From positions 1-43,174 of IMG/VR virus record IMGVR_UViG_3300022074_000103: a stretch of DNA of 43,174 bases. One strand, written 5' to 3'. Both the position numbers and the translations under genes were made by a program. Each line of letters opens with the position of its first letter. Positions within the stretch are counted from its first letter, which is position 1. The DNA is from a virus. Below are positions 1 to 31,730 of this stretch, piece after piece. The notes under the pieces are model-generated. The model saw only the letters and a list, made by a program, of their open reading frames with translations, searched no databases and was not told the DNA's origin.

Positions 1-1
1 T

Positions 2-127
2 TGGATTCACGAGGAATTTCACATCATAGATGACATTGACAATGCCCTGACCTGCTGTTCGGGCTTTGATGAGGTATACCGATACACGGTGGAAGCCATT
101 ATGAATTACAACGAATACAAGTCGTGA
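2..127 (+). CDS. Hypothetical protein, 5' end cut by window
   Basis: An open frame runs in from the left edge and ends at a TGA at 125-127. The 41 visible residues include the stretch HIIDDIDNALTCCSGFDEVY and end NEYKS. There is no start codon before an internal ATG at 101, so the gene begins outside the window. The next gene starts at ATG 127, overlapping the stop as TGATG, a common sign of coupled translation in phage operons. I do not recognise the family; the visible part is acidic, has a Cys-Cys pair and no membrane segment. Confidence 0.55.
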   Translation, partial: WIHEEFHIIDDIDNALTCCSGFDEVYRYTVEAIMNYNEYKS

Positions 128-306
128 TGATCACATACTCACTCACCGCAGAATTCCTCCTATCGATGCACTACCTCACGTCATACCACAGCCAAGAGTT
201 TGTGCAGTATATGATAGACATCATAGAAGGTGAAGACGCACCGTTCGAAGTACGGAACAAGATTCTCGAACAAGAATTGGATCGAAGATCCGCTCATCTA
301 AACTGA
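127..306 (+). CDS. Small hypothetical phage protein (59 aa)
   Basis: This frame opens at ATG 127, overlapping the previous stop (TGATG); a GTG at 124 is in frame but less likely. The product is 59 residues. Its first half is rich in aromatic and hydroxyl residues (ITYSLTAEFLLSMHYLTSYH) and its C-terminal half is charged and probably helical. No known domain, signal peptide or metal site is visible. It lies five bases before the next gene in a run of small same-strand ORFs typical of the accessory early region of tailed phages. Function unknown; the gene call rests on tight packing and coupled start/stop. Confidence 0.55.
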   Translation: MITYSLTAEFLLSMHYLTSYHSQEFVQYMIDIIEGEDAPFEVRNKILEQELDRRSAHLN

Positions 307-311
307 TCATC

Positions 312-689
312 ATGTACAAAGTACGATTCCACCTTGCCAAAGGCAAGTTCTACAAGTGCTGGCAAGTCACCTCACCTAACGGTGACAAAGACTACTACGA
401 TCCCGAGACCCACAACCTGTTCATGTGGGGATGCAAGCTTCGTAATCAGCGGAAGACCGCTGAGAAGATTCACTCAGGAGAACACAAGGCTGTGTGTGCT
501 TGGGTTGAGTGCGACACCTTCGGTGCGACAACTAAGTACCAAGGCAGCCAGCCGGACGATGCAGTCAAGGTATCATACAACCCACGAAAGAAACCCTATT
601 GGGTTGACAGTCAAGGAGTTGACGTGGATGACATGAAGTATAACTTCATCTACTCAGTAAACACAGATCTGTTTACAACAGATCACTAA
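312..689 (+). CDS. Hypothetical phage protein (125 aa)
   Basis: A 125-residue frame starting at ATG 312, six bases after the previous stop. The N-terminal half contains HLAKGKFYKCWQVTSPNGDK and DPETHNLFMWGCKLRNQRKT, with several Cys and Trp residues. A central CAWVECDTF segment follows, and the C-terminus is soluble. The two well-separated Cys-containing segments could be a small metal site, but no CxxC pair is present, so I do not call one. The overlapping +2 frame at 334-636 is a shadow. Function is unknown; context is the early accessory block. Confidence 0.6.
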   Translation: MYKVRFHLAKGKFYKCWQVTSPNGDKDYYDPETHNLFMWGCKLRNQRKTAEKIHSGEHKAVCAWVECDTFGATTKYQGSQPDDAVKVSYNPRKKPYWVDSQGVDVDDMKYNFIYSVNTDLFTTDH

Positions 690-699
690 ACGAAAAGAT

Positions 700-1005
700 A
701 TGAAGACGTTTAAAGACTTAACATTCGAGCCGCATTCGATGCCTATCGGAGACAGACAAGCATTCATCAAATTTGACAACGGGCGAGCCATGTCAGTTGT
801 CACAGGTGCAGACTGGTTCTATACCTCAGATGACAAACCCTACGAGGTTGCGTTCATCAAACAGAACGGAAGGTTGGGCTGCGTATACCTTGACAGGGAC
901 AGCATGTCTGTTGCTCTTGCAGAAGACGCAGACCACAACGATGTCGAAGGGTACTGCACCGAAGAAGATGTGACCCTGATTATGAAAGCAATTCAAATAC
1001 TATAA
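700..1005 (+). CDS. Hypothetical phage protein (101 aa)
   Basis: A 101-residue frame with an ATG start ten bases after the previous stop. The protein is mixed alpha/beta in appearance, acidic in its C-terminal half (ALAEDADHNDVEGYCTEEDV) and ends in a short hydrophobic helix (TLIMKAIQIL). There are no motifs that I recognise and no membrane segment. The next ORF starts two bases after its stop, so it is part of the same transcript. Function unknown. Confidence 0.6.
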   Translation: MKTFKDLTFEPHSMPIGDRQAFIKFDNGRAMSVVTGADWFYTSDDKPYEVAFIKQNGRLGCVYLDRDSMSVALAEDADHNDVEGYCTEEDVTLIMKAIQIL

Positions 1006-1006
1006 C

Positions 1007-1279
1007 ATGGGACGTACTAAAGACCTACGGGATATTATCCCCTTCACCCCCGGACACTTCGAGTCAATCGAGGAGTTCGCATCAGCTATTGGCTGGAACT
1101 TATCAACAAAAGAGCCATCACGTTCAAGTGTTGATTCAAGTCACATGTGGCAAAAGGCTGACTATCAGGCGCTTGTGTATGACCTAGTGCAGTCCGTCTA
1201 CTACTCTCGAAGGAATTGGGAAACTATTGAGAGTCATGTAGATAGAGTCCTGAGTCAGTACATTGAGGTTGATAAGTAG
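1007..1279 (+). CDS. Hypothetical phage protein (90 aa)
   Basis: A 90-residue frame whose ATG lies one base after the preceding TAA. The sequence (beginning MGRTKDLRDIIPFTPGHFES) is soluble and mostly helical, with two hydrophobic/aromatic helices near the C-terminus (ALVYDLVQSVYYSRRNWETI). No recognised domain. It is the last gene of the first cluster; about 210 bases without a convincing gene follow, holding hairpins and a promoter. Function unknown. Confidence 0.6.
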   Translation: MGRTKDLRDIIPFTPGHFESIEEFASAIGWNLSTKEPSRSSVDSSHMWQKADYQALVYDLVQSVYYSRRNWETIESHVDRVLSQYIEVDK

Positions 1280-1410
1280 GGTGACGCTCATTTGCAGATG
1301 TCACATTCACCCACTACCTTTGCCAAGTATGCGGCGGTTGCCCACCAAGGCACACCAGAGCACCACTGTTCAAGCCGCTGCTTTGTCTGATCCCTTCGGG
1401 GTAAAATAAA
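1280..1410 (+). other. Non-coding stretch with hairpins between two gene clusters
   Basis: No convincing gene lies here. I see a 5-bp inverted repeat (GTGAC at 1281, GTCAC near 1300) and a longer bulged stem (GCGGC..TTG at 1331-1340 with CAAGCCGC at 1371-1378). A small CCC-TTCG-GGG hairpin near 1392-1401 is followed by AAAATAAA. Together these could terminate the upstream transcript or form a structured leader, but none has a clear T-run. Fragments of a Cys-rich reading frame occur in two different frames (see findings). Confidence 0.35.
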
Positions 1411-1442
1411 TTTGGAAATACGGAAACTGTTCCTTATCTTTG
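1411..1442 (+). promoter_or_regulatory. Bacteroidota-type promoter (TTTG-N20-TAnnTTTG)
   Basis: TTTG at 1411-1414, a 20-nt spacer, then TATCTTTG at 1435-1442. This matches the Bacteroidota primary sigma consensus (TTG near -33, TAnnTTTG near -7). Transcription would start about 1446-1449, giving a leader of roughly 45 nt to the ATG at 1493. The promoter at 4151 has the same spacing and an almost identical 5' half (TTTGGAA.TACG.AAAC). Confidence 0.75.
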
Positions 1443-1492
1443 TAGGGCCGATTCCGGTAAATCATAACTCACATTCATTCAAAAACAATCAC

Positions 1493-1984
1493 ATGGAAAG
1501 TACACCACAAAACACCCAACCGCAAGGCCAAGACAAACTGGTTCTCAAGTCTACCTTTGGATCCGAACCGCAAGAGCCAAACCCAGTAGCACCACAGCTC
1601 AGCCTGCCTAGTGAGGGTGCAATCTCAGACCTGCTCTCGCATCTCGGACAGGTATTCGGTAACACCGACCTGATCTCAGCAGCTAAGATTGAGCTGGCTT
1701 GTATTCAGGATGAACTGCTTAGAAAGCATCAAGAGGTACAGCCTCAGCTGGACTTCAATGACGTAGAACTTAGAACAGATATCCAAGAGATACTTGAGTC
1801 TGACCACTGGTTCGAGGAAGTACACATCGGTTTCCCAACAGACATGGAGGTAGATTGCAGCGGCTGTGACATTACTGTTTCAGACGTAGAGGGTGAGGTT
1901 GAGGTTAGCATGAGCCAAGGCCAAGCCGAAGTGATGGCAGAGAAGATCATGGACTTTCTCGAAAAAAGAACTAAACATGCTTAA
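1493..1984 (+). CDS. Hypothetical early protein (163 aa), first gene after promoter
   Basis: The frame is open from 1412, but that start lies inside the promoter, so ATG 1493 is the supportable start, giving 163 residues. The N-terminal 45 residues are Gln/Pro/Ser-rich and probably disordered. Helices follow (IELACIQDELLRKHQEV), and the C-terminal half is acidic with a Cys pair (VDCSGCDI) and a beta-like DVEGEVEVSM segment. Its stop overlaps the start of the zinc-ribbon gene. Being promoter-proximal it is probably made early and abundantly. I do not recognise the family; DNA mimicry by the acidic half is conceivable but unsupported. Confidence 0.65.
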   Translation: MESTPQNTQPQGQDKLVLKSTFGSEPQEPNPVAPQLSLPSEGAISDLLSHLGQVFGNTDLISAAKIELACIQDELLRKHQEVQPQLDFNDVELRTDIQEILESDHWFEEVHIGFPTDMEVDCSGCDITVSDVEGEVEVSMSQGQAEVMAEKIMDFLEKRTKHA

Positions 1985-2141
1985 GATTGCAGACCACTAT
2001 TGCCCAGCATGTGGTGAGCGCAGGGAGGATCTCGTCAGAGATGATGAGGTCATTCCCTGCCCATCCTGCGGCAAGCCAATGCACCGAGGCTTAGCCTCAC
2101 CAACTCTCTCAGGTATGAACAAGTACGGACAATCACGATGA
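1977..2141 (+). CDS. Zinc-ribbon microprotein (54 aa)
   Basis: ATG 1977 overlaps the end of the upstream gene by eight bases, and the frame ends at TGA 2139-2141. The 54-residue product carries two knuckles, CPAC (Cys9, Cys12) and CPSC (Cys28, Cys31), 15 residues apart. That is the four-cysteine layout of a zinc ribbon or rubredoxin-like site; DDEVIPCPSCGKPM resembles zinc ribbons found in many small regulatory proteins. The next gene starts within its stop codon (ATGA), indicating translational coupling. It probably binds zinc and contacts nucleic acid or protein; the target is unknown. Confidence 0.65.
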   Translation: MLKIADHYCPACGERREDLVRDDEVIPCPSCGKPMHRGLASPTLSGMNKYGQSR

Positions 2142-2239
2142 AGGACAAGTATAAACATGCAGCAGCAGGTGCTGCCCTACTTGCACTCTACGGAGTAGCT
2201 ATCTCAATCATTTCATTTTTAGTTGGACTGGTAATATGA
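2138..2239 (+). CDS. Single-span membrane microprotein (33 aa)
   Basis: ATG 2138 overlaps the previous TGA (ATGA) and the frame ends at 2239. The 33-residue product has a short basic N-terminus (MKDKYKH) followed by an uninterrupted hydrophobic helix from about residue 8 to 33 (GVAISIISFLVGLVI at the end). This predicts an inner-membrane protein with the N-terminus in the cytoplasm. Its start and stop are both coupled to neighbours, which supports it as a real gene despite its size. Possible roles include superinfection exclusion or membrane signalling; there is no direct evidence. Confidence 0.5.
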   Translation: MKDKYKHAAAGAALLALYGVAISIISFLVGLVI

Positions 2240-2367
2240 ACGAAGAAACACAACACCTCTACTTCTACACAGCACCCAGCGGTGAACACTGTGTAACCTC
2301 AAACGAAATGCTTGCTCACGCAAGATCTATCGAAGGCAGCAGCATAATTGTAAAACAGATAAATTAA
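2236..2367 (+). CDS. Hypothetical microprotein (43 aa)
   Basis: ATG 2236 overlaps the previous stop (ATGA) and the frame ends at TAA 2365-2367, giving 43 residues. It begins MNEETQHLYFYTAPSGEH and ends SSIIVKQIN. The pattern suggests a small beta-alpha fold; there is no membrane segment and one Cys. It lies six bases before the HTH gene. Function unknown; support is the chain of overlapping starts and stops. Confidence 0.5.
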   Translation: MNEETQHLYFYTAPSGEHCVTSNEMLAHARSIEGSSIIVKQIN

Positions 2368-2373
2368 AAGGAC

Positions 2374-2904
2374 ATGCAAAGCCAAATTGAATTTTACACC
2401 CCGAAAGAGATTTCTAAAATCCTAAAAGTCACCACCGCAACCATCAGGAATATGATAAAGCGAGGAGACTTGAGGGCAGTCCAGCTGAAAGGAGGTCGTG
2501 GCATTTACCGCATCCCAACCTCAGAGCTCGACAGAATTATGGTAGATACCTCGACACCCGAGGAACAAGTCAGTTCAAAATCTGTGTTTGCGTCTCACAA
2601 CTTCCCGCCTAGACCCCGTCTAGAGGAGCTTCTTTCGGTTTACATGAAGGGAATACCAACATCTCCAGTTCATGTGACTAAGGAAAGCAAGCTTCGAGAT
2701 GTGTTCTTTGGTAGCGATAATTCTCGCCGCTCAAAGATTCTCAACAAAAGAATCCACGGAGTTTTCTTCAAATGCGGAATGCACAACATGACCGTGCTTG
2801 CGTTTACCCAGACCTACAGGGCGATGGATCTGTCAAAATTCCGCAGTTTCGGAGCCAACTCTGTCGAAGCTGTATACGATGCAATCTACACACTGGATGA
2901 CTAA
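2374..2904 (+). CDS. Excisionase-type helix-turn-helix DNA-binding protein (176 aa)
   Basis: Residues about 5-50 form a MerR/excisionase-like winged HTH: FYTPKEISKILKVTTATIRN is the helix-turn-helix, and the following wing RGIYRIPTSELDRIM is the classic end of HTH_17/excisionase domains. The remaining roughly 120 residues are unfamiliar and contain a basic segment (SDNSRRSKILNKRIHGVFF). That makes it longer than a typical 60-80 aa excisionase and more like a phage transcription regulator. ATG 2374 follows the upstream stop by six bases. No integrase is seen nearby, so a role in lysogeny is not shown; regulation of phage transcription is equally likely. Confidence 0.7.
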   Translation: MQSQIEFYTPKEISKILKVTTATIRNMIKRGDLRAVQLKGGRGIYRIPTSELDRIMVDTSTPEEQVSSKSVFASHNFPPRPRLEELLSVYMKGIPTSPVHVTKESKLRDVFFGSDNSRRSKILNKRIHGVFFKCGMHNMTVLAFTQTYRAMDLSKFRSFGANSVEAVYDAIYTLDD

Positions 2905-3229
2905 CGAACAAGCACACAGGATTATTGAAGAACGGCATGGCGATTCTGACAGCAAGTCAGCGCAGCTTGCCTACATCTTTGCGATGGAAGACCTTATCTC
3001 ACTCGACGTATCCGAGTGGGTGGAGACAGAACCGGAAGCCCTCATGGGAGACTTCCTGAAACACGCAAGGAAAGTAATGTCAGCTTACATCGAGGACAGG
3101 CACGGTGATGACCCCAAGACTGTTGAGGCACTCGATGACCTAAAGAACAGAATGCTCAGCACTGCTGAAGCAATGGTCACATACATGGACTATTGGTGGG
3201 CAGTAAAAAAGCAGGTCGGCAACGGCTGA
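2897..3229 (+). CDS. Hypothetical helical phage protein (110 aa)
   Basis: The frame is open from 2798, but the upstream 33 codons lie within the HTH gene. ATG 2897 overlaps that gene's end by eight bases and is the likely start. The 110-residue product is acidic and helical (MTNEQAHRIIEERHGDSDSK at the N-terminus, repeated RHGD elements) and ends in an aromatic helix (TYMDYWWAVKKQVGNG). No domain is recognised. It is the last gene before the tRNA region. Confidence 0.6.
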   Translation: MTNEQAHRIIEERHGDSDSKSAQLAYIFAMEDLISLDVSEWVETEPEALMGDFLKHARKVMSAYIEDRHGDDPKTVEALDDLKNRMLSTAEAMVTYMDYWWAVKKQVGNG

Positions 3230-3316
3230 CCACTGAAGGGCGCATGGTGTGCAGGGAGATCCTGCAACAGGTTCTTCTCTTCGATGTGAGACCTTGAGAA
3301 ACAAAGCCCTTCTTCT

Positions 3317-3390
3317 GCTCCCTTAGCTCAGCTGGATAGAGCAACGCACTTCTAATGCGTAGGTCATAGGTTCGAATCCTATAGGGAGTA
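3317..3390 (+). tRNA. tRNA-Arg (anticodon TCT)
   Basis: A complete 74-nt cloverleaf. The 7-bp acceptor stem is GCTCCCT with AGGGAGT (first pair G-T), with discriminator A3390. The D arm is TAGCTCAGCTGGATAGAGC. The anticodon stem is ACGCA/TGCGT with loop CTTCTAA (anticodon TCT), and the T arm is ATAGG-TTCGAAT-CCTAT. CCA is not encoded. It would read AGA codons and may help translate late phage mRNA in a host poor in this tRNA. Confidence 0.95.
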
Positions 3391-3598
3391 CTAACTCTTT
3401 GCTTGAAGATAAACAGTAACAAAAGTAAGTGGGACATAAGTGCATGGTAACTGATGCTGTTACCCTCCAGAATGTTACAAACTACATTTCAGAGTAGTTG
3501 TTGTTTATTGGATGATGTATTAAGAAATAATCCCTTGAAGAGGTGTAAATATTAAACTTATACATTCCACAAGACTGAAGGTGGAGCAAAGAGTTTTT
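3391..3598 (+). other. AT-rich spacer with two hairpins between tRNA genes
   Basis: No gene is apparent. Two clear inverted repeats are present: GGTAAC-(7 nt)-GTTACC at 3446-3464 and AACTAC-(8 nt)-GTAGTT at 3480-3499. The second is followed by a T-rich stretch (GTTGTTTATT) and could be a weak terminator or a processing site between the tRNAs. The segment is visibly richer in A and T than the flanking genes, a feature that continues through the small ORF at 3734. Confidence 0.4.
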
Positions 3599-3714
3599 GT
3601 CAAGGTGGCGGAATTGGTAGACGCACGTAGGCATACGATTAGCGGTTGGAGTCCGCAAAGTAGGAGGCATCCGAAAAAAATGATCTAATGCAGGTTCGAA
3701 TCCTGCCCTTGACA
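3599..3714 (+). tRNA. Atypical class II tRNA-like gene, leucine-type D arm, 116 nt
   Basis: The outer parts are perfect: acceptor GTCAAGG (3599-3605) with CCTTGAC (3707-3713), discriminator A3714, a D arm GGCGGAATTGGTAGACGC typical of tRNA-Leu, and a T arm GCAGG-TTCGAAT-CCTGC. The 64 nt between D and T arms are about 30 nt longer than in normal leucine or serine tRNAs. They contain a CGTA-GGCA-TACG hairpin right after the D arm, then GCGG-TTGGAGT-CCGC, whose 7-nt loop would give anticodon GGA (Ser). A long AT-rich variable region follows, with GGA-GGCA-TCC. No standard leucine anticodon arm can be drawn. It may be a tRNA with an insertion, a decayed copy, or a tRNA mimic. Confidence 0.55.
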
Positions 3715-3719
3715 CAATT

Positions 3720-3737
3720 AAACCAATAGAGAGATGA
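3720..3737 (+). repeat. 18-nt duplicated translation leader, copy 1
   Basis: AAACCAATAGAGAGATGA is identical to 3964-3981. In both copies the ATG inside it starts a reading frame. This copy gives the start of the 69-aa ORF (ATG 3734). Confidence 0.8.
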
Positions 3738-3943
3738 GTAAAGAACAAGAAATTTTAGAAAAGTATAAGGCATTACATATAGGTGGTGTTAGCGTTTCGT
3801 TACCATCAGTTGATGGTGCTGGAATTATAGCAGTAGATATTGCTGAAACATTTACAATAATGACAGCACAAGAACAATCCTTTTTTATAGCTGGGTTCTC
3901 TGAATGTATAAAGTATTTAGAAATGCAGAGTAATGAACGCTAA
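3734..3943 (+). CDS. Small AT-rich hypothetical protein (69 aa), likely insert
   Basis: ATG 3734 lies at the end of an 18-nt leader that recurs before the next gene. The 69-residue product begins MSKEQEILEKYKALHIGGVS and has a mixed hydrophobic core (AGIIAVDIAETFTIMTAQEQ) and an aromatic helix (SFFIAGFSECIKYLEM). Codon choice is AT-rich (many TTA, ATA, AAA) compared with the GC-richer genes on both sides. The duplicated leader plus composition suggest that this ORF arrived recently and split an existing leader from its gene. No family is recognised. Confidence 0.6.
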   Translation: MSKEQEILEKYKALHIGGVSVSLPSVDGAGIIAVDIAETFTIMTAQEQSFFIAGFSECIKYLEMQSNER

Positions 3944-3963
3944 CCACCCAACAACGACAACCC

Positions 3964-3981
3964 AAACCAATAGAGAGATGA
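3964..3981 (+). repeat. 18-nt duplicated translation leader, copy 2
   Basis: An exact repeat of 3720-3737. The ATG within it (3978) is in frame with the downstream membrane protein and is the best start for that gene. Confidence 0.8.
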
Positions 3982-4148
3982 TTGACTCACTGAACTTTAC
4001 TGAAGATCAAGTCCACATTGTATCACGCATCCAGAAGCAGTCCTTTGAGAGTGGGCTGGTCTGGGGTGTGGTGTACAGCATAGCCGGGATCATTGGGATA
4101 ATTGGAGCCGTCTGTGCTGCCACCCGATGGGGACATTTGCTCTTCTAA
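3978..4148 (+). CDS. Small single-span membrane protein (56 aa)
   Basis: The frame is open from ATG 3933, overlapping the previous stop. The ATG at 3978, embedded in the duplicated 18-nt leader, is preferred and gives 56 residues. After a charged N-terminal helix (DSLNFTEDQVHIVSRIQKQS) comes a strong hydrophobic helix, about residues 24-46 (VYSIAGIIGIIGAVCAA), then TRWGHLLF. An inner-membrane protein of unknown role. It ends just before the promoter at 4151. Confidence 0.55.
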   Translation: MIDSLNFTEDQVHIVSRIQKQSFESGLVWGVVYSIAGIIGIIGAVCAATRWGHLLF

Positions 4149-4150
4149 AA

Positions 4151-4182
4151 TTTGGAATTACGTAAACACTTTAATACATTTG
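4151..4182 (+). promoter_or_regulatory. Bacteroidota-type promoter (TTTG-N20-TAnnTTTG)
   Basis: TTTG at 4151-4154, a 20-nt spacer, TACATTTG at 4175-4182. The 5' half (TTTGGAATTACGTAAAC) is nearly the same as the promoter at 1411. The ATG of the DnaA-like gene is only nine bases after the -7 element, so the mRNA would have a leader of about 2-5 nt or none. Confidence 0.75.
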
Positions 4183-4191
4183 CATCGGCAC

Positions 4192-4620
4192 ATGAAAGAA
4201 GCAAGACAGGACATCCTAGATGCCATCAAAATCTACTACAAGGAGCTCGGATTCAGACGAGATAACTCCAGAGTTACACATCAGGCTCAGGCCCGAACCG
4301 CACTATCCAACGTCATGCGAGAGTATGGTATGACATACGAAGAGATAGGGGTTTATGTGAACAGAGATCACTCCACTGTTGTCCACCACTGTAGGCACCA
4401 CGCTGATGAGCTCAGGACGTGGAGCGGATACAAGAGTGCCTACGAAAAGTGCAAGGCTATCGTTGGGTCAGCACTGGTGGGTGACCTCGATGATATAATC
4501 GCCTATCTGAAGGAGAAGCAAGATGCTTTGCAAGTACAGATTGACGAATACCTCAAGAAGAAACAAGAAAATGATGCGAGGATTAAAGAGTTGGCTGCGG
4601 ACGGCGTTGAGATTGGATGA
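4192..4620 (+). CDS. Stand-alone DnaA domain IV (DNA-binding) protein, 142 aa
   Basis: The frame extends back to 4102, but a promoter occupies 4151-4182, so ATG 4192 is the start. Residues 8-78 match DnaA domain IV: helix ILDAIKIYYKELG, a basic segment with QAQARTALSNVM, then the signature HTH MTYEEIGVYVNRDHSTVVHH with RDHSTV at 58-63 (RDH[ST]TV in host DnaA). The AAA+ domain of full-length DnaA (about 450 aa) is absent. The C-terminal 50 residues are a charged coiled coil. It could bind DnaA boxes on phage or host DNA, acting as an origin-binding protein or as a competitor of host replication initiation. It is the first gene of the replication operon. Confidence 0.82.
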   Translation: MKEARQDILDAIKIYYKELGFRRDNSRVTHQAQARTALSNVMREYGMTYEEIGVYVNRDHSTVVHHCRHHADELRTWSGYKSAYEKCKAIVGSALVGDLDDIIAYLKEKQDALQVQIDEYLKKKQENDARIKELAADGVEIG

Positions 4621-4789
4621 CGTATACGTTGTCCACCTAGACCGTAGAACAGAGCACAACCAAGTACCAGCAGAAGTCGCTGGCGTTTTCACCTACGAGT
4701 CTGATGCGATTGAGTTCGCAGAACACTATAACAAGTACCTCACAGATGGTCTGATGCAGGCACATGTAACAAAGCAAATCACAATTTAA
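4613..4789 (+). CDS. Small hypothetical protein (58 aa); start uncertain
   Basis: The frame is open from 4523. TTG 4613 overlaps the DnaA-like gene by eight bases and gives a natural start of a beta-like segment (DDVYVVHLDRRTEHNQ); ATGs at 4571 and 4574 would give a longer overlap of about 50 bases. The remainder, YESDAIEFAEHYNKYLTDGL, looks like a single helix. The stop TAA shares a base with the ATG of the annealing protein (TAATG). No family recognised; small beta-alpha proteins of this type are common beside phage recombination genes. Confidence 0.5.
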   Translation: MDDVYVVHLDRRTEHNQVPAEVAGVFTYESDAIEFAEHYNKYLTDGLMQAHVTKQITI

Positions 4790-5349
4790 TGAGTACCTAC
4801 AAGTTCAAGACCACCAAGATCAAAGGCAAGGACTACGTCGAAGTAAACGAGCGTATCAAGTTCTTCCGTCAAGAGGATCAGTACAAGAACTGGTCTATCC
4901 AAACAGAGTTCCCTATGATCACCGAAGATGAGGCGCTCTGTCGATGCACCATCACCAACGATGCAGGCATGCCCATAGCACAGGGACACGCTCACGAGCT
5001 CAAGGCTAACGGCATGATCAACAAGACCTCCTTCGTGGAGAACTGTGAGACATCAGCAGTGGGTCGTGCGCTGGCTATGCTCGGTATCGGCATCGACATC
5101 AGCATTGCTTCGGCCAACGAAGTTGAGACGGCTATCGCTCAGCAGGATGCCAAGCCCGCAGCCAAGAAATCTATCGGCAAGCAGATCCAAGAGACTGCTG
5201 ACGATCTCCGCGAGAACATCATGGATAAGGCAGTTGCGTACATCAAGTCGCAGACTAACAAGCAGAAAGCATTCGATGCTATCGTCGAGAAGTACGGTGA
5301 TGCTCTTACTGCTAAGCAGAAGACTGGGCTGCAAAAGTTTGTGCGATGA
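4789..5349 (+). CDS. Single-strand annealing protein, ERF/Rad52-like (186 aa)
   Basis: The region from about residue 17 to 110 has the hallmarks of phage ERF-type annealing proteins. VEVNERIKFFRQ and WSIQTE are followed by a beta-rich stretch with AQGHAHE, then the conserved INKTSFVENCETSAVGRALAMLGIG (split here as INKTSFVENC and ETSAVGRALAMLGIG) and SIASANEVETA. The C-terminal 70 residues are Lys-rich and helical. Such proteins form rings that anneal complementary single strands. The next gene, an exonuclease overlapping it by four bases (ATGA), completes a two-component recombination pair as in lambda Bet/Exo or RecT/RecE. Start ATG 4789 is coupled to the previous stop. Confidence 0.8.
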   Translation: MSTYKFKTTKIKGKDYVEVNERIKFFRQEDQYKNWSIQTEFPMITEDEALCRCTITNDAGMPIAQGHAHELKANGMINKTSFVENCETSAVGRALAMLGIGIDISIASANEVETAIAQQDAKPAAKKSIGKQIQETADDLRENIMDKAVAYIKSQTNKQKAFDAIVEKYGDALTAKQKTGLQKFVR

Positions 5350-6140
5350 TCCTGTCAGCACAGCTGCACGAGAGGTACGATAAGGCTCACTTGTCGTACT
5401 CCTCTATCAAACAGGCTCTGGCAGACATGGCTCAGTTTGACCGCTACATGAAGGGCGAGCTACGCTACACGTCAGATGCTCTGAACTTCGGGACACTGTA
5501 TGACATGCTCTTGTTTGAGCGTGACAAAGCAATGGATATGTACATCGTCATGTCTAATGATAAGATCCTCGATGCTTGCAGCGAGAAGACACGCAACTCA
5601 AAGCGTCCTCAGATGACCAATGAGTTCAGGGATCGCAAGGCGTTTATGGCTGAGCAAGCTTCAGCCTCAGACAAGATCCTGTGTAGCACAGATGACTGGA
5701 AGATGGCGAACGAAATGATCGAGCGCCTTCACGAGTGCGGCCTGATCCGATCCCACATGACGGGTGATTATCAGGTGGAGTTCAACGAAGACATCCAGAC
5801 ATCTGTCGGACCTGTTCGGGTCAAGGGATTCCTCGACTGCCTTGGTGATGGGTACATCACTGACTCCAAGTCAACAAAGTCTGTCAGTAAGTTTCGGTAT
5901 AGTGTCCGTGACTTTGGGTATGACATCCAAGCGTACATCTACTCGACTGTCTTTGGTATCAAGGACTTCTACTGGGTGGCGCAAGAGAAGACCTACCCCT
6001 ACCTACCTGCTCTCATCAAGTGTACAGAGAACACCCTGTTCACTGGTGAGATGAAGTTTCAAGATGCGGTCAAGCGCATCCATAAGTTCCTGAATGAAGA
6101 TGAGAAACCAACCATCTTCTTCGAGGAGTTCGAAGTGTAA
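5346..6140 (+). CDS. PD-(D/E)XK exonuclease, RecE/RecB-like (264 aa)
   Basis: The protein looks like the DUF3799/exodeoxyribonuclease VIII-type phage nucleases. An N-terminal LSYSSIKQAL and ALNFGTLYDMLLFE segment (family GT..H.LLE) is followed by a candidate acidic residue Glu145 (YQVEF). The core motif is Asp164 in KGFLDCL with Asp173-Ser-Lys175 in ITDSKSTKS, and the RecB-family Q..Y motif is in DIQAYIYS (Gln195, Tyr197). It would resect double-stranded DNA to give the substrate of the annealing protein encoded just upstream, used in recombination or concatemer processing. ATG 5346 overlaps the upstream stop (ATGA). Confidence 0.82.
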   Translation: MILSAQLHERYDKAHLSYSSIKQALADMAQFDRYMKGELRYTSDALNFGTLYDMLLFERDKAMDMYIVMSNDKILDACSEKTRNSKRPQMTNEFRDRKAFMAEQASASDKILCSTDDWKMANEMIERLHECGLIRSHMTGDYQVEFNEDIQTSVGPVRVKGFLDCLGDGYITDSKSTKSVSKFRYSVRDFGYDIQAYIYSTVFGIKDFYWVAQEKTYPYLPALIKCTENTLFTGEMKFQDAVKRIHKFLNEDEKPTIFFEEFEV

Positions 6141-6161
6141 ATTTTTAAATTCCCCAATAAG

Positions 6162-6470
6162 ATGAGCGACAAAAAGTACGACTCGGAATTGATCGGATGG
6201 GTTGATGATCCCGTCTACAACGAACAAGGTGAACTGATCAGCTGGACTATCAAGCTGAAAGATCACGAATTGAAAGACATCATGGACAACTACGTCACAC
6301 CTCGTGACGAGAAAGGTCAGGGCGGTAACGCTCGTATCAAGTTGTTCATGAGCAAGAACGGCAAAGCCTGTGGCTCTGTCTACAACTTCAACAGCGAAGC
6401 TGCGAAGGAGAGACGAGCGGCTGCAATGGCTCGCCAGAACGAGCAGTCGGACGGAGATCTTCCGTTCTGA
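6162..6470 (+). CDS. Putative single-stranded DNA-binding protein (102 aa)
   Basis: A 102-residue acidic protein with a beta-rich body (SELIGWVDDPVYNEQGELIS, ARIKLFMSKNGKACGSVYNF), a Lys/Arg-Ala linker and the C-terminal tail QSDGDLPF. Acidic tips ending in a hydrophobic Phe are the hallmark of SSB proteins (DDDIPF in bacteria) and of T7 gp2.5, where they recruit replication partners. Together with its place after the annealing protein and exonuclease and before the primase-helicase, this suggests a small SSB. I cannot prove an OB fold by eye. A strong terminator follows 23 bases after the stop. Confidence 0.6.
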   Translation: MSDKKYDSELIGWVDDPVYNEQGELISWTIKLKDHELKDIMDNYVTPRDEKGQGGNARIKLFMSKNGKACGSVYNFNSEAAKERRAAAMARQNEQSDGDLPF

Positions 6471-6493
6471 TTTTGGTTTATGTTAGGTATGAG

Positions 6494-6518
6494 ACCCCGC
6501 TTCGGCGGGGTTTCTTTT
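6494..6518 (+). terminator. Rho-independent terminator
   Basis: A perfect 7-bp stem ACCCCGC (6494-6500) with GCGGGGT (6505-6511) closed by a TTCG tetraloop, followed by TTCTTTT. It lies after the SSB-like gene, so the replication genes downstream rely on read-through or another promoter that I could not identify. Confidence 0.9.
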
Positions 6519-6528
6519 CCCCTATATT

Positions 6529-6786
6529 ATGGATGAGTCACCGATGATATACTACATGATCGTGCAGCTCTCGTACAAGAAGAACCGCAGCACCTTCAGC
6601 GCAAAGGAATGGGTGGTCAGTATCCACGATACACCCGGAGGCATCATGAACAACGACAAGAAGATGATGCGTATGCTAGAGGAGAGACTGTACGGTAAGA
6701 AGTACAAGAGCAAGAAGCAGATCATGATCAAGAAGATCTTAGAGAAGACACCCCTAACACGTCAAAGTAAACAAGCATTGAAATGA
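6529..6786 (+). CDS. Small basic hypothetical protein (85 aa)
   Basis: ATG 6529 is the first start after the terminator. The product has a beta-like N-terminus (MIYYMIVQLSYKKNRSTF, AKEWVVSIHD) and a very Lys/Met-rich C-terminal half (KKMMRMLEERLYGKKYKSKK), so it is strongly basic and may bind nucleic acid. Its stop overlaps the start of the DUF3310 gene (ATGA). No family recognised. Confidence 0.55.
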   Translation: MDESPMIYYMIVQLSYKKNRSTFSAKEWVVSIHDTPGGIMNNDKKMMRMLEERLYGKKYKSKKQIMIKKILEKTPLTRQSKQALK

Positions 6787-7004
6787 GTTACGATAACATA
6801 AACCCTGATCACTACAAGCAAGGAGATAAAGAAGTCTGGCAGATGATGATAGACTGCTTTGGAGAAGAAGCATACATCAGTTTCTGTCGCCTGAATGCAT
6901 TCAAGTACCGGATGAGAGCGGGTAGAAAGCCCGACTCGAATGCCCACGACGACTTTCATAAAGCGCTTTGGTATGAGAAACAAATCGAAGAGCTATGCAA
7001 GTAA
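6783..7004 (+). CDS. DUF3310 family protein (73 aa)
   Basis: The whole protein fits the DUF3310 family, found in many phages including T7-like and cyanophages. NPDHYKQGDKEVWQMMID is the family's N-terminal signature. It is followed by CRLNAFKYRMRAGRK with the conserved N..KY..R...K, and then by the D..KA.WY motif in HDDFHKALWYEKQIEEL. In some phages the domain is fused to, or annotated as, a nucleotide kinase, but its activity is unproven. It sits between a basic ORF and the primase-helicase, overlapping the latter by ten bases, in keeping with a nucleotide or replication role. Confidence 0.8.
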   Translation: MSYDNINPDHYKQGDKEVWQMMIDCFGEEAYISFCRLNAFKYRMRAGRKPDSNAHDDFHKALWYEKQIEELCK

Positions 7005-8797
7005 CATTCTTCAAAGACATTAAAGCGCCTGACGAGCCACACCATGTTGATGTGACCACGGCGCTCAACCGTATACGTGATGGCAAGAGCAGACATCAGA
7101 TCGAAGAGTACAGAACTTCGGGGGACAAGTCCCTCAAGAACAGCCTCCCGCTCGTATGCTTCAGCGGTGAGTTCACTCGCAGAGCAGATGATGCATTGTT
7201 CGAACACTCTGGACTCATCGTCTTGGACTTCGATCATGTGGACGTTAACGAGAGCAAGGGCTTTGTCGGTGCTGACGATCACGTCTACGCTTGCTGGACT
7301 TCACCATCTGGTGACGGACTCAAGGCACTCGTCAGAGTCACCAACCCAGAGCGGCACCGTGATCACTTCCGAGCGCTCCGCACATACTTCGAGAAGCAGT
7401 ACAACCTAGAGGTTGATGAGTCAGGCATCAATGAGTCTCGTGCATGCTTCGAGAGCTATGACCCTGAGATCATTGTCAACCCATCGAGCCGACCCTTCGG
7501 TGCCTTTGCATCTGAGAAATCAGAGAAGCAAGTAGTCGAGGTTACTGGTGAGTACACAGACTATATGAAGCTCAACCTCGCTGCACGTATGATACGTCAG
7601 GCAGAGGACGGGCAGAAGCACGCAACACTTCTTGCAGCCGCGAGACTGTGTGGTGGATTTGTTGCTGCCGGACGCATGGAGGAAGAGGAAGTTATCAGAG
7701 TTCTATTCCGTGAGATAACCAAGCGTGACGTTGATGACGAGCAGCATGCCAGAAGAACGATCATCGAAGGGATTGAGAGGGGTAAGCTGGACCCCCTGCG
7801 TGACACCATCGACGCAGAGCAGGACGCAAAGCGTGATCTCCTGATCAATGACGGTGACATGTCGTTTGTCTCATCAGATGATGAGGACTTCCGTTGGATC
7901 GACGACTACGCACAAGGCAAGATCGAGGTAGGGCTGGACACTGGTGACGAGAACTTCGACCAGTACTTCCGCTACAAGAAAGAGTTCCTAGTGATGAACG
8001 GGCATAGCAACGTGGGCAAGACTACAGTCGCCCTGTACCTGATGGTCAACGCAGCCATTCGTCACGACTGGAGATGGGTGGTGTACTCATCAGAGAACAA
8101 GACTGCCTCCATCAAGATGAAGCTCATGGAGTTTGCTTGCAACAAGAAAGCCGGTATGATGTCATACGCCGAGCGTAAGTTCGCATACAAGTGGGTGCAG
8201 CAACACTTCACTGTCATCAGCAACCGTGAGACCTACACCTACACAGACATCATGGTTTTCTTGGAGAAGATCCTACGTCAACAGGATGCAGATGCTGTAT
8301 TCATTGACCCTTACAACTCACTCAAGGTTGACCCCGGCAAGGTGAGTGAGCACCAGTATCACTACGAAGCAGCGTCAGAGTTCTTGACATTCAGCAACAA
8401 GCATGACGTTGCAGTGTGGCTCAATGCCCACGCAGTGACCGAGGCTCAGCGCCGCAAGGGTGATGACGGGTTGCCAGTAGCGCCATTCGCTGAGGACACT
8501 GAAGGCGGTGGTAAGTTTGTTAACAGGGCAGACTGCTTCATCACTATCCACCGTAAGGTCCAAGCTCCTGACAATGACATGAAGCGCACCGCAGAGATCC
8601 ACGTTCGCAAGGTGCGTGAGACGGAGACCGGAGGTCAGCCTACACCGTGGGATGATCCTGTTCGATTCCGCTTCAATACACAAGGCACAGGCTACCGCTT
8701 GACCAGCACGTTCAAGGAATTGTACGATCCAATCGAGCACATTCCAGATGAGCAGATGAGAATTACTATGGAAATGGAGAACTTTTTCATTGATTAA
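6995..8797 (+). CDS. Primase-helicase with BT4734/VirE-N-type primase and RecA-like helicase (600 aa)
   Basis: Residues 1-170 resemble the BT4734-like/VirE N-terminal domain, a primase-polymerase fold frequent in Bacteroidota. Visible elements are LVCFSGEF, an acidic pair in LIVLDFDHVD (Asp78, Asp80), CWTSPSGDGLKALVRV and SGINESRACFESYDP. A helical linker domain follows (about 190-265). The C-terminal half is a DnaB/RecA-type ATPase with Walker A GHSNVGKT at 336-343 (Lys342) and Walker B AVFIDP ending at Asp438; WLNAHAVTEAQRRK and FVNRADCFITIHRK are the sensor-like later motifs. It probably replaces T7 gp4: primer synthesis and fork unwinding. The zinc-finger/TOPRIM primase of T7 gp4 is not present. 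The start at 6995 overlaps DUF3310 by ten bases. Confidence 0.85.
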   Translation: MQVTFFKDIKAPDEPHHVDVTTALNRIRDGKSRHQIEEYRTSGDKSLKNSLPLVCFSGEFTRRADDALFEHSGLIVLDFDHVDVNESKGFVGADDHVYACWTSPSGDGLKALVRVTNPERHRDHFRALRTYFEKQYNLEVDESGINESRACFESYDPEIIVNPSSRPFGAFASEKSEKQVVEVTGEYTDYMKLNLAARMIRQAEDGQKHATLLAAARLCGGFVAAGRMEEEEVIRVLFREITKRDVDDEQHARRTIIEGIERGKLDPLRDTIDAEQDAKRDLLINDGDMSFVSSDDEDFRWIDDYAQGKIEVGLDTGDENFDQYFRYKKEFLVMNGHSNVGKTTVALYLMVNAAIRHDWRWVVYSSENKTASIKMKLMEFACNKKAGMMSYAERKFAYKWVQQHFTVISNRETYTYTDIMVFLEKILRQQDADAVFIDPYNSLKVDPGKVSEHQYHYEAASEFLTFSNKHDVAVWLNAHAVTEAQRRKGDDGLPVAPFAEDTEGGGKFVNRADCFITIHRKVQAPDNDMKRTAEIHVRKVRETETGGQPTPWDDPVRFRFNTQGTGYRLTSTFKELYDPIEHIPDEQMRITMEMENFFID

Positions 8798-8814
8798 ACC
8801 GTACCTTTCCATGC

Positions 8815-9270
8815 ATGAAAAGACGAAAGGCGGGAACGACCCGACGAAAGTCTGCTAAAAAGCGACAGCTAGGAAAGTACAAGAGCGGATTAGAGAAGAG
8901 TTGTGCGGACTTGCTTAGAGAATCTAAGCTCCCATTCAACTACGAAGAGAAGGAATATGTTCTCGTAGACAAGTTTAGGTTTGAAGGCGTGTACCACAAG
9001 ATGACCGCCAAGAAGAAAACTCTTACCGACCGAAGCAACAGCATGGTGCTACCCATCAGGTATACACCTGACTTCGTAGCCAAGGATGGGAGCTGGATCA
9101 TTGAGACCAAAGGGTACACACCTTCACACCACGACTTTCCTATGAGATGGAAGCTGTTCTTGAAACACCTTGTTGAGCTAGACGAACCACTACCAATGCT
9201 GTTTATCTGTAAGAACACGCAGCAAGTTGTCGAAGCAATAGAAATAATCAAGAATGAACGATCTAAGTGA
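8815..9270 (+). CDS. T7 endonuclease I-like Holliday-junction resolvase (151 aa)
   Basis: The pattern is close to T7 gp3. A basic N-terminus (first 22 residues) is followed by KSGLEKSCADLL with Glu27 (T7 Glu20), FNYEEKEYVL, then YTPDFV with Asp86 (T7 Asp55) and WIIETKGY with Glu97 and Lys99 (T7 Glu65, Lys67). Relative to T7 there is an insert of about 20 residues before YTPDFV. The enzyme would resolve branched DNA and, in T7, also helps to degrade host DNA. The phage's two other nuclease-fold genes are nearby. Its last 17 bases overlap the next small ORF. Confidence 0.85.
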   Translation: MKRRKAGTTRRKSAKKRQLGKYKSGLEKSCADLLRESKLPFNYEEKEYVLVDKFRFEGVYHKMTAKKKTLTDRSNSMVLPIRYTPDFVAKDGSWIIETKGYTPSHHDFPMRWKLFLKHLVELDEPLPMLFICKNTQQVVEAIEIIKNERSK

Positions 9271-9460
9271 GAGACTGTTCGCTGCATGCAACCGCATGGG
9301 GCAAGCAGTTACAGAGTTCTATGATGAGATCCACCCTGAAGGGGAGCCGGATGTCAGCATGGAAGATCTCGGTCACCTCATACACGACCTGAAGTATTAC
9401 ATCAGGCTGGAGCTGGACCTAGTTAAAGAACTGTTCAAAGAGAAGGATGAACTGGGTTGA
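9254..9460 (+). CDS. Small acidic helical protein (68 aa)
   Basis: ATG 9254 lies within the end of the resolvase gene, and the frame ends at 9460, overlapping the next start by 14 bases. The 68-residue protein is acidic and helical: MNDLSERLFAACNRMGQAVT at the start, then HLIHDLKYYIRLELDLVKEL, which is amphipathic and could dimerise. No catalytic motif is visible. Its position between two nuclease genes suggests a partner or accessory role, but this is only context. Confidence 0.55.
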   Translation: MNDLSERLFAACNRMGQAVTEFYDEIHPEGEPDVSMEDLGHLIHDLKYYIRLELDLVKELFKEKDELG

Positions 9461-9971
9461 GGTAAAAGTCACCGATGAAATCCTAGAACAAGCACAAGTA
9501 ATGGCTGACCGTATGGGTGCTATCAAGAATAGCATTCGCAAAGGTCAGGGCAATCTTGCTGGGTTCATTGGTGAGCTGATCGTTGAGCACTACATCGGAG
9601 ATGTTCAACTTCATTCTACGAAGGACCACGACATGTGGTTGTTTCCCCTGTCTAATGATCCGCTTTCTGTAGACGTTAAGACTAAGCAGAGAACGGTGAA
9701 ACCCCGTGGCGAATACACCTGCCACATCGCTGCTACTAGCGAGCACCAGAGGTGTGACATCTATATCTTCTGTCAGGTAAACCTGAAGCCAAAGCTACGA
9801 GCTTGGATACTCGGGTGGATGCCCAAGGAGGACTTCATGGAGAGGTCTGTTGCACTTAAAAAAGGTCAGTCTTTGAAGGACGTTGGGTACAACGATGACG
9901 ACTTCAAACAAAAGGCTGACGGTAATGTATTGTTAATTAGCGACTTGCGAGATATCAAAGATATACCGTAA
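9447..9971 (+). CDS. PD-(D/E)XK nuclease-like protein (174 aa)
   Basis: The layout suggests a restriction-endonuclease-like fold: a helix with NLAGFIGELIVEHYIGD (Glu43), then DHDMWL (Asp60/Asp62), a strand SVDVKTKQR with Asp76-Val-Lys78, and a later strand CDIYIFCQV. GE..V..Y....D....D..V..V.VK is the common core of several phage and restriction nucleases with this fold. The substrate is unknown; roles in DNA processing or in host DNA degradation are plausible beside the resolvase and the RNR. The C-terminal 60 residues (LRAWILGWMPKEDFMERS) are also typical of such phage proteins. Confidence 0.6.
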   Translation: MNWVEVKVTDEILEQAQVMADRMGAIKNSIRKGQGNLAGFIGELIVEHYIGDVQLHSTKDHDMWLFPLSNDPLSVDVKTKQRTVKPRGEYTCHIAATSEHQRCDIYIFCQVNLKPKLRAWILGWMPKEDFMERSVALKKGQSLKDVGYNDDDFKQKADGNVLLISDLRDIKDIP

Positions 9972-9999
9972 ATTAGTCGTCCCTTTTTTCACAAAACTT

Positions 10000-11892
10000 A
10001 TGACTCAGAAACAAACTATCCCTTGGGGAGAGGTGGGCTACCCTACCTTCAAACGCACCTACTCTCGACCGTTGAAGAACGGCAAGACAGAAGAGTGGGG
10101 AGACACTGTAGAACGTGTAATCGAAGCTTGCAACAAGCAGCTCAAGTGTGGATTCAGTACGCAAGAACAGGACGGCATCCGTGAGATGATGCTCAACCTG
10201 AAGGGTACTGTAGCTGGCCGCTTCCTGTGGCAGCTTGGCACCAAGACTGTTGATAGGCTTGGCCTACCGTCATTGCAGAACTGTGCCTTCACTGTAGTGG
10301 ACAATCCGGTTCGTCCATTTACTTGGGCCTTCGAGATGCTGATGCTTGGATCCGGCGTAGGATTCAACATCCAACGTGAGCACGTATACCAGCTACCCAA
10401 GGTGAAGCGTAAAGTGAAGGTCACTCGTCTGGATGAGAATGACGCTGACTTCATCGTGCCTGATTCTCGTGAGGGATGGGTGGAGCTTCTGGATCGTGTA
10501 CTCAGAGCAAGCTTCGAGACTGGTAACAACTTCACCTTCGCAACTCACCTCATTCGTGGTAAGGGATCTGCGATCAAAGGATTTGGAGGGACAGCCTCTG
10601 GACCAGAAGATTTGGTGTGGGGAATGCTGGAGATCAACCGCATCCTCAACGAGCGATCAGGGAAGCGTCTGCGCCCTATTGATTGCCTCGACATCATGAA
10701 CATCATCGGGAAGATTGTAGTGGCAGGAAACGTCCGCAGATCAGCTCAGATTGCTATCGGTGACCACGATGACTTGGAGTACCTGAGAGCTAAGCGCTGG
10801 GACTTGGGTGGTATCCCAAACTGGAGAGCCATGAGCAACAACTCTGTTGCCTGTGAGGACATCACCACTCTGCCCGATGAGTTCTGGGAAGGTTACAAAG
10901 GTAACGGTGAGCCATACGGTTTGATCAACCTCGCCTCTTCACGTATTCAAGGACGTACAGGTGAGACCCAGTACCCTGATCCTGATGTGATGGGGTATAA
11001 CCCTTGTGCTGAGCAATCACTTGCTAACTTCGAGACCTGCTGTCTGGCTGAGATCTACTTGCCAAACATCGAGAGCAAAGAAGAACTCAAGAAAGTTGCT
11101 ACCTTATTGTACAGAATCAACAAGCATAGCCTCGCTATCCCATGTGCTGTCAAGGAGACCGAGGATATTGTACACGCTAACATGCGTATGGGCATTGGTG
11201 TGACAGGATACCTGCAAGCTACAGATGAGCAACGTAGCTGGTTGTCAGATGTATACGTCCACCTTCGTGCATACGATAAAGAATACTCTTCTCACCATGA
11301 TTTTCCTGAATCAATTAAGATCACTACAGTCAAGCCAAGTGGAACGCTGTCTCTACTTGCTGGTGTTACTCCCGGAGCTCACCCCGGATACAGTCAGTAC
11401 TACATTAGACGAATCCGAATGGCGGCAGATAGTGAACTTGCATCGGTGGCTAGGAACAATGGGTATTTCGTAGAGTATGTAAGAAACTTTGACGGCACAG
11501 AGGATCACTCTACTGTCGTTGTCGAGTTCCCCTGCCAGTTCCCTGCTGGAACTATGTTCGCTGATGACATGACTGCCATCGACCAGCTGAACGTAATCCG
11601 CAAACTGCAAGCAGAATGGAGCGACAACTCAGTATCGGTGACCATCTACTACCGAAAGGAAGAGCTCGACGCAATCAAGGCATGGTTGGTTGTCAACTAC
11701 GTGAACACGAAGTCTGTCTCCTTCCTCCTACACAGCGACCACGGGTTTGATCAGGCTCCTTTGGAGGAGATCACCGAGGCTCGCTACTTGGAGATGAAAG
11801 AGAGCGTGACTCCGATCACGTCACTTGACAACCTTAACATGGATGACATTGACATCGCCGATTGCGATACAGGAGCATGCCCAGTAAGGTAG
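10000..11892 (+). CDS. nrdJ: Adenosylcobalamin-dependent ribonucleoside-triphosphate reductase, class II (630 aa)
   Basis: Reduces ribonucleoside triphosphates to deoxyribonucleotides using vitamin B12 coenzyme, without oxygen dependence or a small subunit. Catalytic residues line up with Lactobacillus leichmannii RTPR. Cys95 (NCAFTVVDNP) corresponds to Cys119. Cys336 and Glu338 (YNPCAEQSL) correspond to Cys408 and Glu410, and Cys347 (FETCCLAE) to Cys419, with the same spacing of 11. The C-terminal shuttle pair Cys622/Cys627 (DCDTGACPVR) corresponds to Cys731/736. Other family blocks are SGVGFNIQREHV, GNVRRSAQIAIGD and TTVKPSGTLSLLAGVTPGAH. At 630 aa it is shorter than RTPR (739), as phage versions often are. 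It supplies dNTPs for phage replication; a 39-aa zinc protein overlaps its 3' end. Confidence 0.95.
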   Translation: MTQKQTIPWGEVGYPTFKRTYSRPLKNGKTEEWGDTVERVIEACNKQLKCGFSTQEQDGIREMMLNLKGTVAGRFLWQLGTKTVDRLGLPSLQNCAFTVVDNPVRPFTWAFEMLMLGSGVGFNIQREHVYQLPKVKRKVKVTRLDENDADFIVPDSREGWVELLDRVLRASFETGNNFTFATHLIRGKGSAIKGFGGTASGPEDLVWGMLEINRILNERSGKRLRPIDCLDIMNIIGKIVVAGNVRRSAQIAIGDHDDLEYLRAKRWDLGGIPNWRAMSNNSVACEDITTLPDEFWEGYKGNGEPYGLINLASSRIQGRTGETQYPDPDVMGYNPCAEQSLANFETCCLAEIYLPNIESKEELKKVATLLYRINKHSLAIPCAVKETEDIVHANMRMGIGVTGYLQATDEQRSWLSDVYVHLRAYDKEYSSHHDFPESIKITTVKPSGTLSLLAGVTPGAHPGYSQYYIRRIRMAADSELASVARNNGYFVEYVRNFDGTEDHSTVVVEFPCQFPAGTMFADDMTAIDQLNVIRKLQAEWSDNSVSVTIYYRKEELDAIKAWLVVNYVNTKSVSFLLHSDHGFDQAPLEEITEARYLEMKESVTPITSLDNLNMDDIDIADCDTGACPVR

Positions 11893-11996: not shown

Positions 11997-12011
11997 AACG
12001 GATAGATCAGT

Positions 12012-24721: not shown

Positions 24722-24729
24722 CAAAAATA
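24722..24729 (-). promoter_or_regulatory. Candidate -7 promoter element TATTTTTG
   Basis: On the minus strand TATTTTTGCGAT runs directly into the ATG at 24717. It fits TAnnTTTG, but I find no TTTG 17-23 nt upstream, so the promoter is only a candidate. The same arrangement is found at 31723 and 37643. Confidence 0.45.
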
Positions 24730-31722: not shown

Positions 31723-31730
31723 CAAATATA
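31723..31730 (-). promoter_or_regulatory. Candidate -7 promoter element TATATTTG
   Basis: On the minus strand TATATTTGCCGT is followed directly by ATG 31718, leaving four bases between element and start codon. No TTTG is seen at the -33 position, where the upstream terminator hairpin lies. If used, it would give a leaderless tail-gene mRNA. Confidence 0.5.

Follow-up and report, generated by a model that had tools for sequence, protein, structure and literature searches.

The window analysed here is the whole of the virus record IMGVR_UViG_3300022074_000103, a stretch of 43,174 bases. Both of its ends fall inside genes, and the portal protein at the right end aligns only to positions 303–818 of an 827-position family; the window is therefore a fragment. 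The plus-strand arm, at approximately positions 1–12,000, encodes a protein similar to the C-terminal part of DnaA, an exonuclease, a primase/helicase and a ribonucleotide reductase. The minus-strand arm encodes the portal, the capsid and other virion proteins. Two similar sequences of 32 nucleotides (nt), at positions 1411–1442 and 4151–4182 of the plus strand and here termed P1 and P2, are putative early promoters of the type read by the primary sigma factor of Bacteroidota, in what is probably a marine phage of that phylum. The opposite strand displays what appears to be a second, late promoter class, which a preliminary description of this DNA had overlooked. It consists of a -7 box, mostly TATATTTG, without a -33 element.

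Putative early promoters on the replication-gene strand

P1 (1411–1442, plus strand) has the -33 element TTTG at 1411–1414, a 20-nt spacer and the -7 box TATCTTTG at 1435–1442. P2 (4151–4182, plus strand) has TTTG followed by exactly 20 nt and the box TACATTTG at 4175–4182. Both boxes are of the form TAnnTTTG with no G at the two free positions. The sites thus match the published Bacteroidota primary-sigma (sigma-ABfr) consensus TTTG / TAnnTTTG in both elements, in the 20-nt spacing and in the G-free -7 positions (PMC6847099, PMC7366714; excerpts of these papers, and of PMC3160421 cited below, are the source throughout). The preliminary description had placed both 32-mers and their spacing at these coordinates and had named this consensus, and it is borne out on these points. 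Its figure of about 24 agreeing positions is slightly high, as a hand count gives 23 of 32, but the close likeness itself stands. It was also right that the usual -35/-10 form does not apply. Neither site matches the sigma-70 form (TTGACA, 16–18 nt, TATAAT), a scan for it gives chance numbers in the region (13 versus 14.3 in shuffles) with no match overlapping either site, and the sigma-70 reading was rejected.

A search of the window with the shared 17-mer TTTGGAANTACGNAAAC, allowing up to three mismatches, gives 3 matches against a shuffle mean of 0.79. P1 and P2 match without mismatch and the third, at three mismatches, is on the minus strand; there is no other below three. The pattern TTTG-N{17,23}-TANNTTTG has four exact matches, all on the plus strand (1291–1322, 1382–1414, 1411–1442 and 4151–4182), with 0.76 expected from whole-window shuffles, of which 1 in 100 reaches four. 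Fixing the spacer at N20 and excluding G from the two free positions leaves three matches versus 0.06 in shuffles of 200-nt blocks (three being reached in 0 of 300), and with TTTGGAA as the upstream part there are two versus 0.00. When two mismatches are allowed in the N20 pattern the count is at chance level (49 found, 46.5 expected). Only exact matches are therefore informative, and fuzzy pattern matching was dropped.

The earlier statement that there are two such promoters needs revision, since at least three copies exist and two further exact -33/-7 matches adjoining P1 had gone unmentioned. One of these, P1a (1291–1322, plus strand), is another exact TTTG-N20-TACCTTTG situated 5′ of a conserved non-coding stretch, and it is kept in the close relatives L005, L010 and L018. 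The other, TTTG-N21-TAAATTTG (1382–1414, plus strand), overlaps the -33 of P1 and is the weakest candidate; its exact match is lost in L018. The third copy is found in L005 and L010, which overlap the window and extend to its left, at about 1.2–1.4 kilobases (kb) before the window start, and reads TTTGGAAAATTGAAAACTTATCCCTATCTTTG in L005. Positions 1291–1442 are nearly unchanged in the three close relatives (L005 is identical here) and P1 itself is invariant, though the left flank diverges in L010 and L018. Across nine sequences P2 has invariant TTTG, AAAC and TACATTTG, and its spacer varies in some.

The early-strand form common to the relatives is roughly AAAATAAA-TTTGGAA-...-TATCTTTG. In a set of 33 early-strand rows (31 distinct) AAAATAAA is found 5′ of TTTG and TATCTTTG is the usual box; these rows were picked for TTTGG or TTTGC in the 45 nt upstream, which biases their count of G. 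P1 is on the strand opposite the capsid gene and has every part of the form. Its A-rich block, TAAAATAAA (1402–1410, plus strand), lies immediately 5′ of the -33 in an UP-like position, and most of the 33 rows are likewise A-rich there, although A-richness played no part in their selection. P2 has a weaker A-rich block (CTTCTAAAA) and the box TACATTTG. A second set, of 22 early promoters with near-duplicates removed, was picked on A-richness. Here G follows TTTG in 18 of the 22, and the spacer contains 6.84 bits of information versus 2.16 ± 0.36 when shuffled (maximum 3.76 in 2000 shuffles). The phage early copies thus differ from the sigma-ABfr promoter by the added A-rich block, the G(AA) after TTTG and the non-random spacer. 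It is not claimed that the conserved spacer is tied to the -33 rather than the -7, as its information is similar from either end (6.84 and 6.99 bits), nor that a GGAA direct repeat is an operator, as it is imperfect in the 22 promoters.

The form is unevenly distributed between the strands. A comparison of 20 of the 40 related records and the window, in which "early" and "late" denote strand only (G004, G006, G009, G012, G015, G020, G024 and G028 lack a part), finds that 37 of the 373 -7 boxes on the early strand, and 5 of the 562 on the late strand, have a -33 TTTG. For boxes at most 60 nt from a start the figures are 28 of 78 and 2 of 203. The pattern TTTG-N{19,21}-TAnnTTTG has 55 matches in 26 of the 40 related records, with 25 in the reversed control; strand and form separate signal from noise among them. 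The earlier label "early" agrees with the strand and with the replication genes that follow, and the relatives hold this promoter form largely to that strand.

The first gene downstream of P1 (1493–1984, plus strand) encodes 163 amino acids with no family match. The gene downstream of P2 (4192–4620, plus strand) encodes the DnaA C-terminal-like DNA-binding domain (Bac_DnaA_C, E 6.9e-8), and its ATG is 10 nt past the -7 box, so that its leader would be just 4–5 nt or so. When 38 nt starting 2 nt past the box are folded, early leaders have a mean z score of -1.07 (n = 33, 45% below -1) and late leaders one of +0.10 (n = 65, 12% below -1). Both sets contain related records and the hairpin difference is a lead only. 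At P1 a short hairpin of four pairs with the loop ATTC (1447–1458, plus strand) is near the predicted 5′ end of the transcript, with a z score of -0.86 taken alone, and hairpins of other sequence are found there in relatives. Such short hairpins of differing sequence near predicted early 5′ ends, e.g. GGC-AATTCA-GCC and GAC-AACAAC-GTC, are seen in G004, G005, G006, G009, G012, G014, G018, G020, G022 and G024.

Late -7 boxes and their distance to the start codon

Four intergenic boxes of the window's minus strand lie 5, 5, 6 and 21 nt from a start codon, and a -33 is present in none. The box TATATTTG at 31723–31730 is 5 nt before the ATG at 31718 (gene 30954–31718) and directly follows a hairpin resembling an intrinsic terminator (31736–31766, minus strand), whose T-tract runs into the box; this layout is repeated in many relatives. 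The box TATTTTTG at 24722–24729 is 5 nt before the ATG at 24717 (gene 23854–24717), and TATCTTTG at 37643–37650 is 6 nt before the ATG at 37637 (gene 37347–37637). These three are probable leaderless promoters. The fourth, TATATTTG at 36514–36521, is 21 nt before the ATG at 36493 (gene 36068–36493) and is predicted to be a late promoter that gives a short leader.

Box-to-ATG spacing was counted in the window and loci L005–L123, for TAnnTTTG sites followed within 60 nt by an ATG that begins a frame of 70 codons or more (n = 320). The spacing is 5 nt in 105 cases, 6 nt in 17 and 7–13 nt in only 12, and a second broad group is found at 14–30 nt. Eleven altered patterns give 0–10 cases at 5–6 nt, and the top two of these, with the endings TTTC and TTTT, are one base off the real box. 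The 122 sites at 5–6 nt span 14 protein families and read TATATTTG, with T at -10 in 95% and A at -9 in 81%. TTTG is present 17–23 nt upstream at 5 of these 122 sites and, in another count, at 6 of 151 late boxes. Many relatives have the 5-nt box directly after the T-tract of a terminator. Among the 105 sites at 5 nt, 87% have C or T immediately ahead of the ATG. The 143 leadered sites have A there in 47% of cases, and A as the fifth and sixth base past the box in 95 and 108 of them.

The spacing is also characteristic of the individual gene. Orthologues were counted in 81 loci with misses included and 75 nt searched; L055 and L056 are near-duplicates, the related records are not independent and, except in isolated phages, start codons were called in this analysis. 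The count favoured 5–6 nt when several ATGs fitted, and it missed at least one 5-nt case (L048, gene 23854). For gene 30954–31718 the box is at 5–6 nt in 57 of 66 orthologues, at 14–30 nt in seven and at 7–13 nt in two. The orthologues of gene 37347–37637 have it at 5–6 nt in 30 of 44, with 13 boxless and one farther, and those of gene 23854–24717 in 11 of 20, with five boxless and four other. The box of gene 36068–36493 is at 14–30 nt in 33 of 39 (three boxless, three farther). The capsid gene (33072–34436) and gene 30112–30954 lie within operons and form an internal control: a box is found at 0 of 81 and 0 of 63 orthologues, respectively. ATGs at 9 nt past the box in G007 and G012 are probably not true starts, judging from related proteins of other records.

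The same arrangement is present in L184, a locus of a bin labelled Ekhidna sp., at position 14505: the orthologue of gene 30954 again has a terminator, TATCTTTG and an ATG at 5 nt.

Predicted promoter use and its alternatives

It is likely that the early sites are promoters of a shared form read by the host sigma factor, and that the virion strand uses a second form, lacking the -33, from which several families are transcribed without a leader. Use, polymerase, timing and the leaderless late messenger RNAs (mRNAs) are predicted here from the sites, their conservation, their strand bias and their spacing. Host RNA polymerase with the primary sigma factor (sigma-ABfr type) would read P1 and P2 upon entry of the phage DNA. 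The early form, mainly on the replication-gene strand, would comprise the A-rich block, -33 TTTGGAA, the non-random spacer and the -7 box TATCTTTG, and would yield mRNAs with leaders mostly of about 15–50 nt. On the virion-gene strand the second form would have a like -7 box (mostly TATATTTG) and no -33, by which it departs from the sigma-ABfr promoter. In several late families the box, 5–6 nt from the ATG, would place the mRNA start at or beside the start codon, and in other families it would be 14–30 nt away.

Late mRNAs with the 5–6 nt spacing are probably leaderless because RNA starts 5–6 nt past the -7 box in Flavobacterium, according to the excerpted literature. The boxes of genes 30954, 37347 and 23854, at 5, 6 and 5 nt and conserved in relatives, are placed for initiation at the start codon. 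The C or T before the ATG at 5-nt sites, together with the A-rich context of leadered starts, is as expected if RNA begins 5–6 nt past the box. Leaderless mRNAs are reported to be rare in Bacteroidota (PMC6847099, PMC7366714, PMC3160421). The excerpts give 87% of leaders as longer than 10 nt in F. johnsoniae (PMC6847099), about 3.7% of 5′ untranslated regions as shorter than 10 nt in B. thetaiotaomicron (PMC7366714) and, in an older survey, leaderless genes in 1 of 37 Bacteroidetes/Chlorobi genomes (PMC3160421). That survey takes a -10-like promoter box lying a constant few nucleotides ahead of the start codon as a leaderless sign, as in Actinobacteria and Deinococcus-Thermus. The late boxes described here share this placing, but they are of the Bacteroidota -7 type and stand before phage virion genes. 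A leaderless habit of Bacteroidota as a whole was considered and rejected, as 40 genomes show only a mild excess of TATATTTG-N4-ATG (267 versus 94 in the reversed control); TATATTTG-N9-ATG in the same genomes gives 173 versus 111.

A wider proposal, tentative and rated at less than an even chance, is that this phage group makes a fixed set of virion genes from leaderless mRNAs, conserved gene by gene, so that leaders, often with a 5′ hairpin, would be found on early genes and be missing from these late ones. If true, the mode of translation would change during infection, in a phylum with rare leaderless mRNAs and no Shine-Dalgarno use.

Several observations weigh against the two-form interpretation. 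The isolated phages with a homologous capsid are the Flavobacterium elemo phages, Maribacter phage Panino and Cellulophaga phages (85 records: 68 Flavobacterium, 15 Cellulophaga, 1 Maribacter and 1 unnamed), all at less than 60% identity. ElemoA and Panino have opposed replication and virion arms as in the window, and Panino also displays TTTGG with 20-nt spacing. However, both strands of Panino carry the -33 TTTG (at 6 of 40 and 6 of 45 boxes), and in elemoA it is scarce (2 of 63 and 1 of 49). Late-strand boxes at 5 nt number two in elemoA, one in Panino and none in phi38:1 (50 of 72.5 kb), and on the early strand each of the three phages has a single box at 5 or 6 nt. In elemoA the box precedes the annotated start of the gene 30954–31718 orthologue by 20 nt, and in Panino by 17 nt. 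The gene thus looks leadered in both, and leaderlessness would be confined to the nearer relatives of the window. The 10 nt between P2 and its ATG fall in the rarely used 7–13 nt gap. Among late genes, the orthologues of the scaffold gene (34462–35532) are boxless in 54 of 81 loci, with 26 at 14–30 nt and one farther, and those of gene 31783–32622 in 58 of 73, with 15 at 14–30 nt. Exact early-pattern matches are absent from 14 of the 40 related records, and a good part of the 55 found are due to chance.

It is conceivable, though unlikely, that TTTGGAA-N5-GAA is also a binding site, overlapping the -33, for a phage or host regulator on which the early promoters would depend. In its favour are the strongly non-random spacer and an HTH_17/MerR-like protein (2374–2904) that the window encodes in addition to the DnaA_C-like protein. 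The long form AAATTTGG-N19-TATCTTTG has 8 matches in 4 of the 40 phage records and none in 40 genomes of the class of the Ekhidna bin (134.6 megabases). For a pattern of this length chance alone would give close to zero matches, so that the result shows no more than that the exact form is not in common use among hosts. In the same host-class genomes the core TTTG-N20-TATCTTTG is enriched (86 versus 39 in the reversed control), from which it follows that host polymerase uses this core. The host promoter itself is described as having A-rich stretches near -28 and -18 (PMC6847099).

That the late TATATTTG boxes are read by a phage RNA polymerase or a phage sigma-like factor, their likeness to the host -7 being incidental, is doubtful. 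Such a reader would fit the near absence of TTTG upstream of these boxes and the strictness of the box at -10 and -9, but a -33 is not needed, as the host promoters of F. johnsoniae likewise show little of it (PMC6847099). Among the proteins tested (10 + 9) none matched a Pfam polymerase or sigma family, although the window is a fragment and the gene could lie outside it. The three largest late proteins tested show no DxDGD motif; a phage RNA polymerase in the large late proteins was set aside, with no sign of one by Pfam or by this motif.

The 5–6 nt spacing could in principle reflect a translation signal 5′ of the start codon rather than a promoter at the mRNA end, as the box is near the ATG in all these genes and, in Bacteroidota, the context of the start codon takes the place of Shine-Dalgarno sites (PMC6847099). 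This is improbable given that the box is a complete host -7 element and in many relatives immediately follows the T-tract of a terminator, that the A-rich context of leadered starts is missing at the 5-nt sites, and that 7–13 nt is avoided and 14–30 nt is common. Least credible of all is a likeness of the two 32-mers by recent duplication or chance without promoter function; the window has just two copies, but counts are far above local shuffles (3 versus 0.06), copies in relatives vary in the spacer and keep TTTG and TAnnTTTG, and a like form recurs on the early strand of many related records.

Host-read promoters of Bacteroidota type are ordinary in principle. Two strand-divided forms, with a conserved set of seemingly leaderless late genes, are more than ordinary in context, and the titles and opening abstracts found among open-licence PMC papers describe neither phage promoter class. 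For a group of Bacteroidota phages that is abundant but has few cultured members, the sites provide exact positions of putative early and late promoters, and the early form may be usable to find early arms in related metagenomic phages. The late gene set, probably leaderless, may be an entry to how Bacteroidota ribosomes start without Shine-Dalgarno pairing.

Host and other features of the window

The preliminary description took the promoters as direct evidence of the host phylum. A promoter match is indirect evidence only, but the phylum itself is supported independently of the promoters and of clustered regularly interspaced short palindromic repeat (CRISPR) data. The primase of the window has a BT4734-like domain, the capsid relatives are those given above, and a search of 84,980 species genomes with the capsid profile finds one relative, in the bin labelled Ekhidna sp. 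(a Bacteroidota genus); stray phage contigs can occur in such bins. The host phylum expected for a primary-sigma promoter is thus indicated, on indirect evidence. The primase search is less clean, with a few phages of cyanobacteria or Bradyrhizobium among 60 records. Isolated phages searched for DNA identical to the first 12 kb of the window gave no match.

Loci L025–L032, a more distant group with about 62% primase identity, have -33/-7 pairs of their own with CAACGA in the spacer (e.g. L031:5907 and L031:10845). One pair is located directly after the primase gene and is 5 nt before an ATG in three loci.

The non-coding stretch at 1291–1412 (plus strand), which includes P1a, is a candidate small RNA. 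It is part of the nearly invariant segment of L005, L010 and L018, and positions 1327–1412 have a stable fold (z score -2.13). An Rfam scan of 1270–1500 gave no match up to E 1.

Two large late proteins display weak or short similarities. The 1790 amino acid protein at 24740–30112 (minus strand) has a weak, sub-cut-off match to the crAss muzzle C-terminal domain, which hints at a crAss-like tail. The 3104 amino acid protein at 12859–22173 (minus strand), in which no polymerase motif was found, has only a short match (residues 2017–2119), to the mycobacteriophage L5 gp82 family.

Positions 3599–3714 (plus strand) match the Rfam transfer RNA (tRNA) model at 40.6 bits with no ARAGORN call, and have a middle part of 55 nt where the model has 17. 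This appears to be an odd tRNA gene, possibly insertion-bearing or decayed, and a normal tRNA-Arg is located nearby at 3317–3391.

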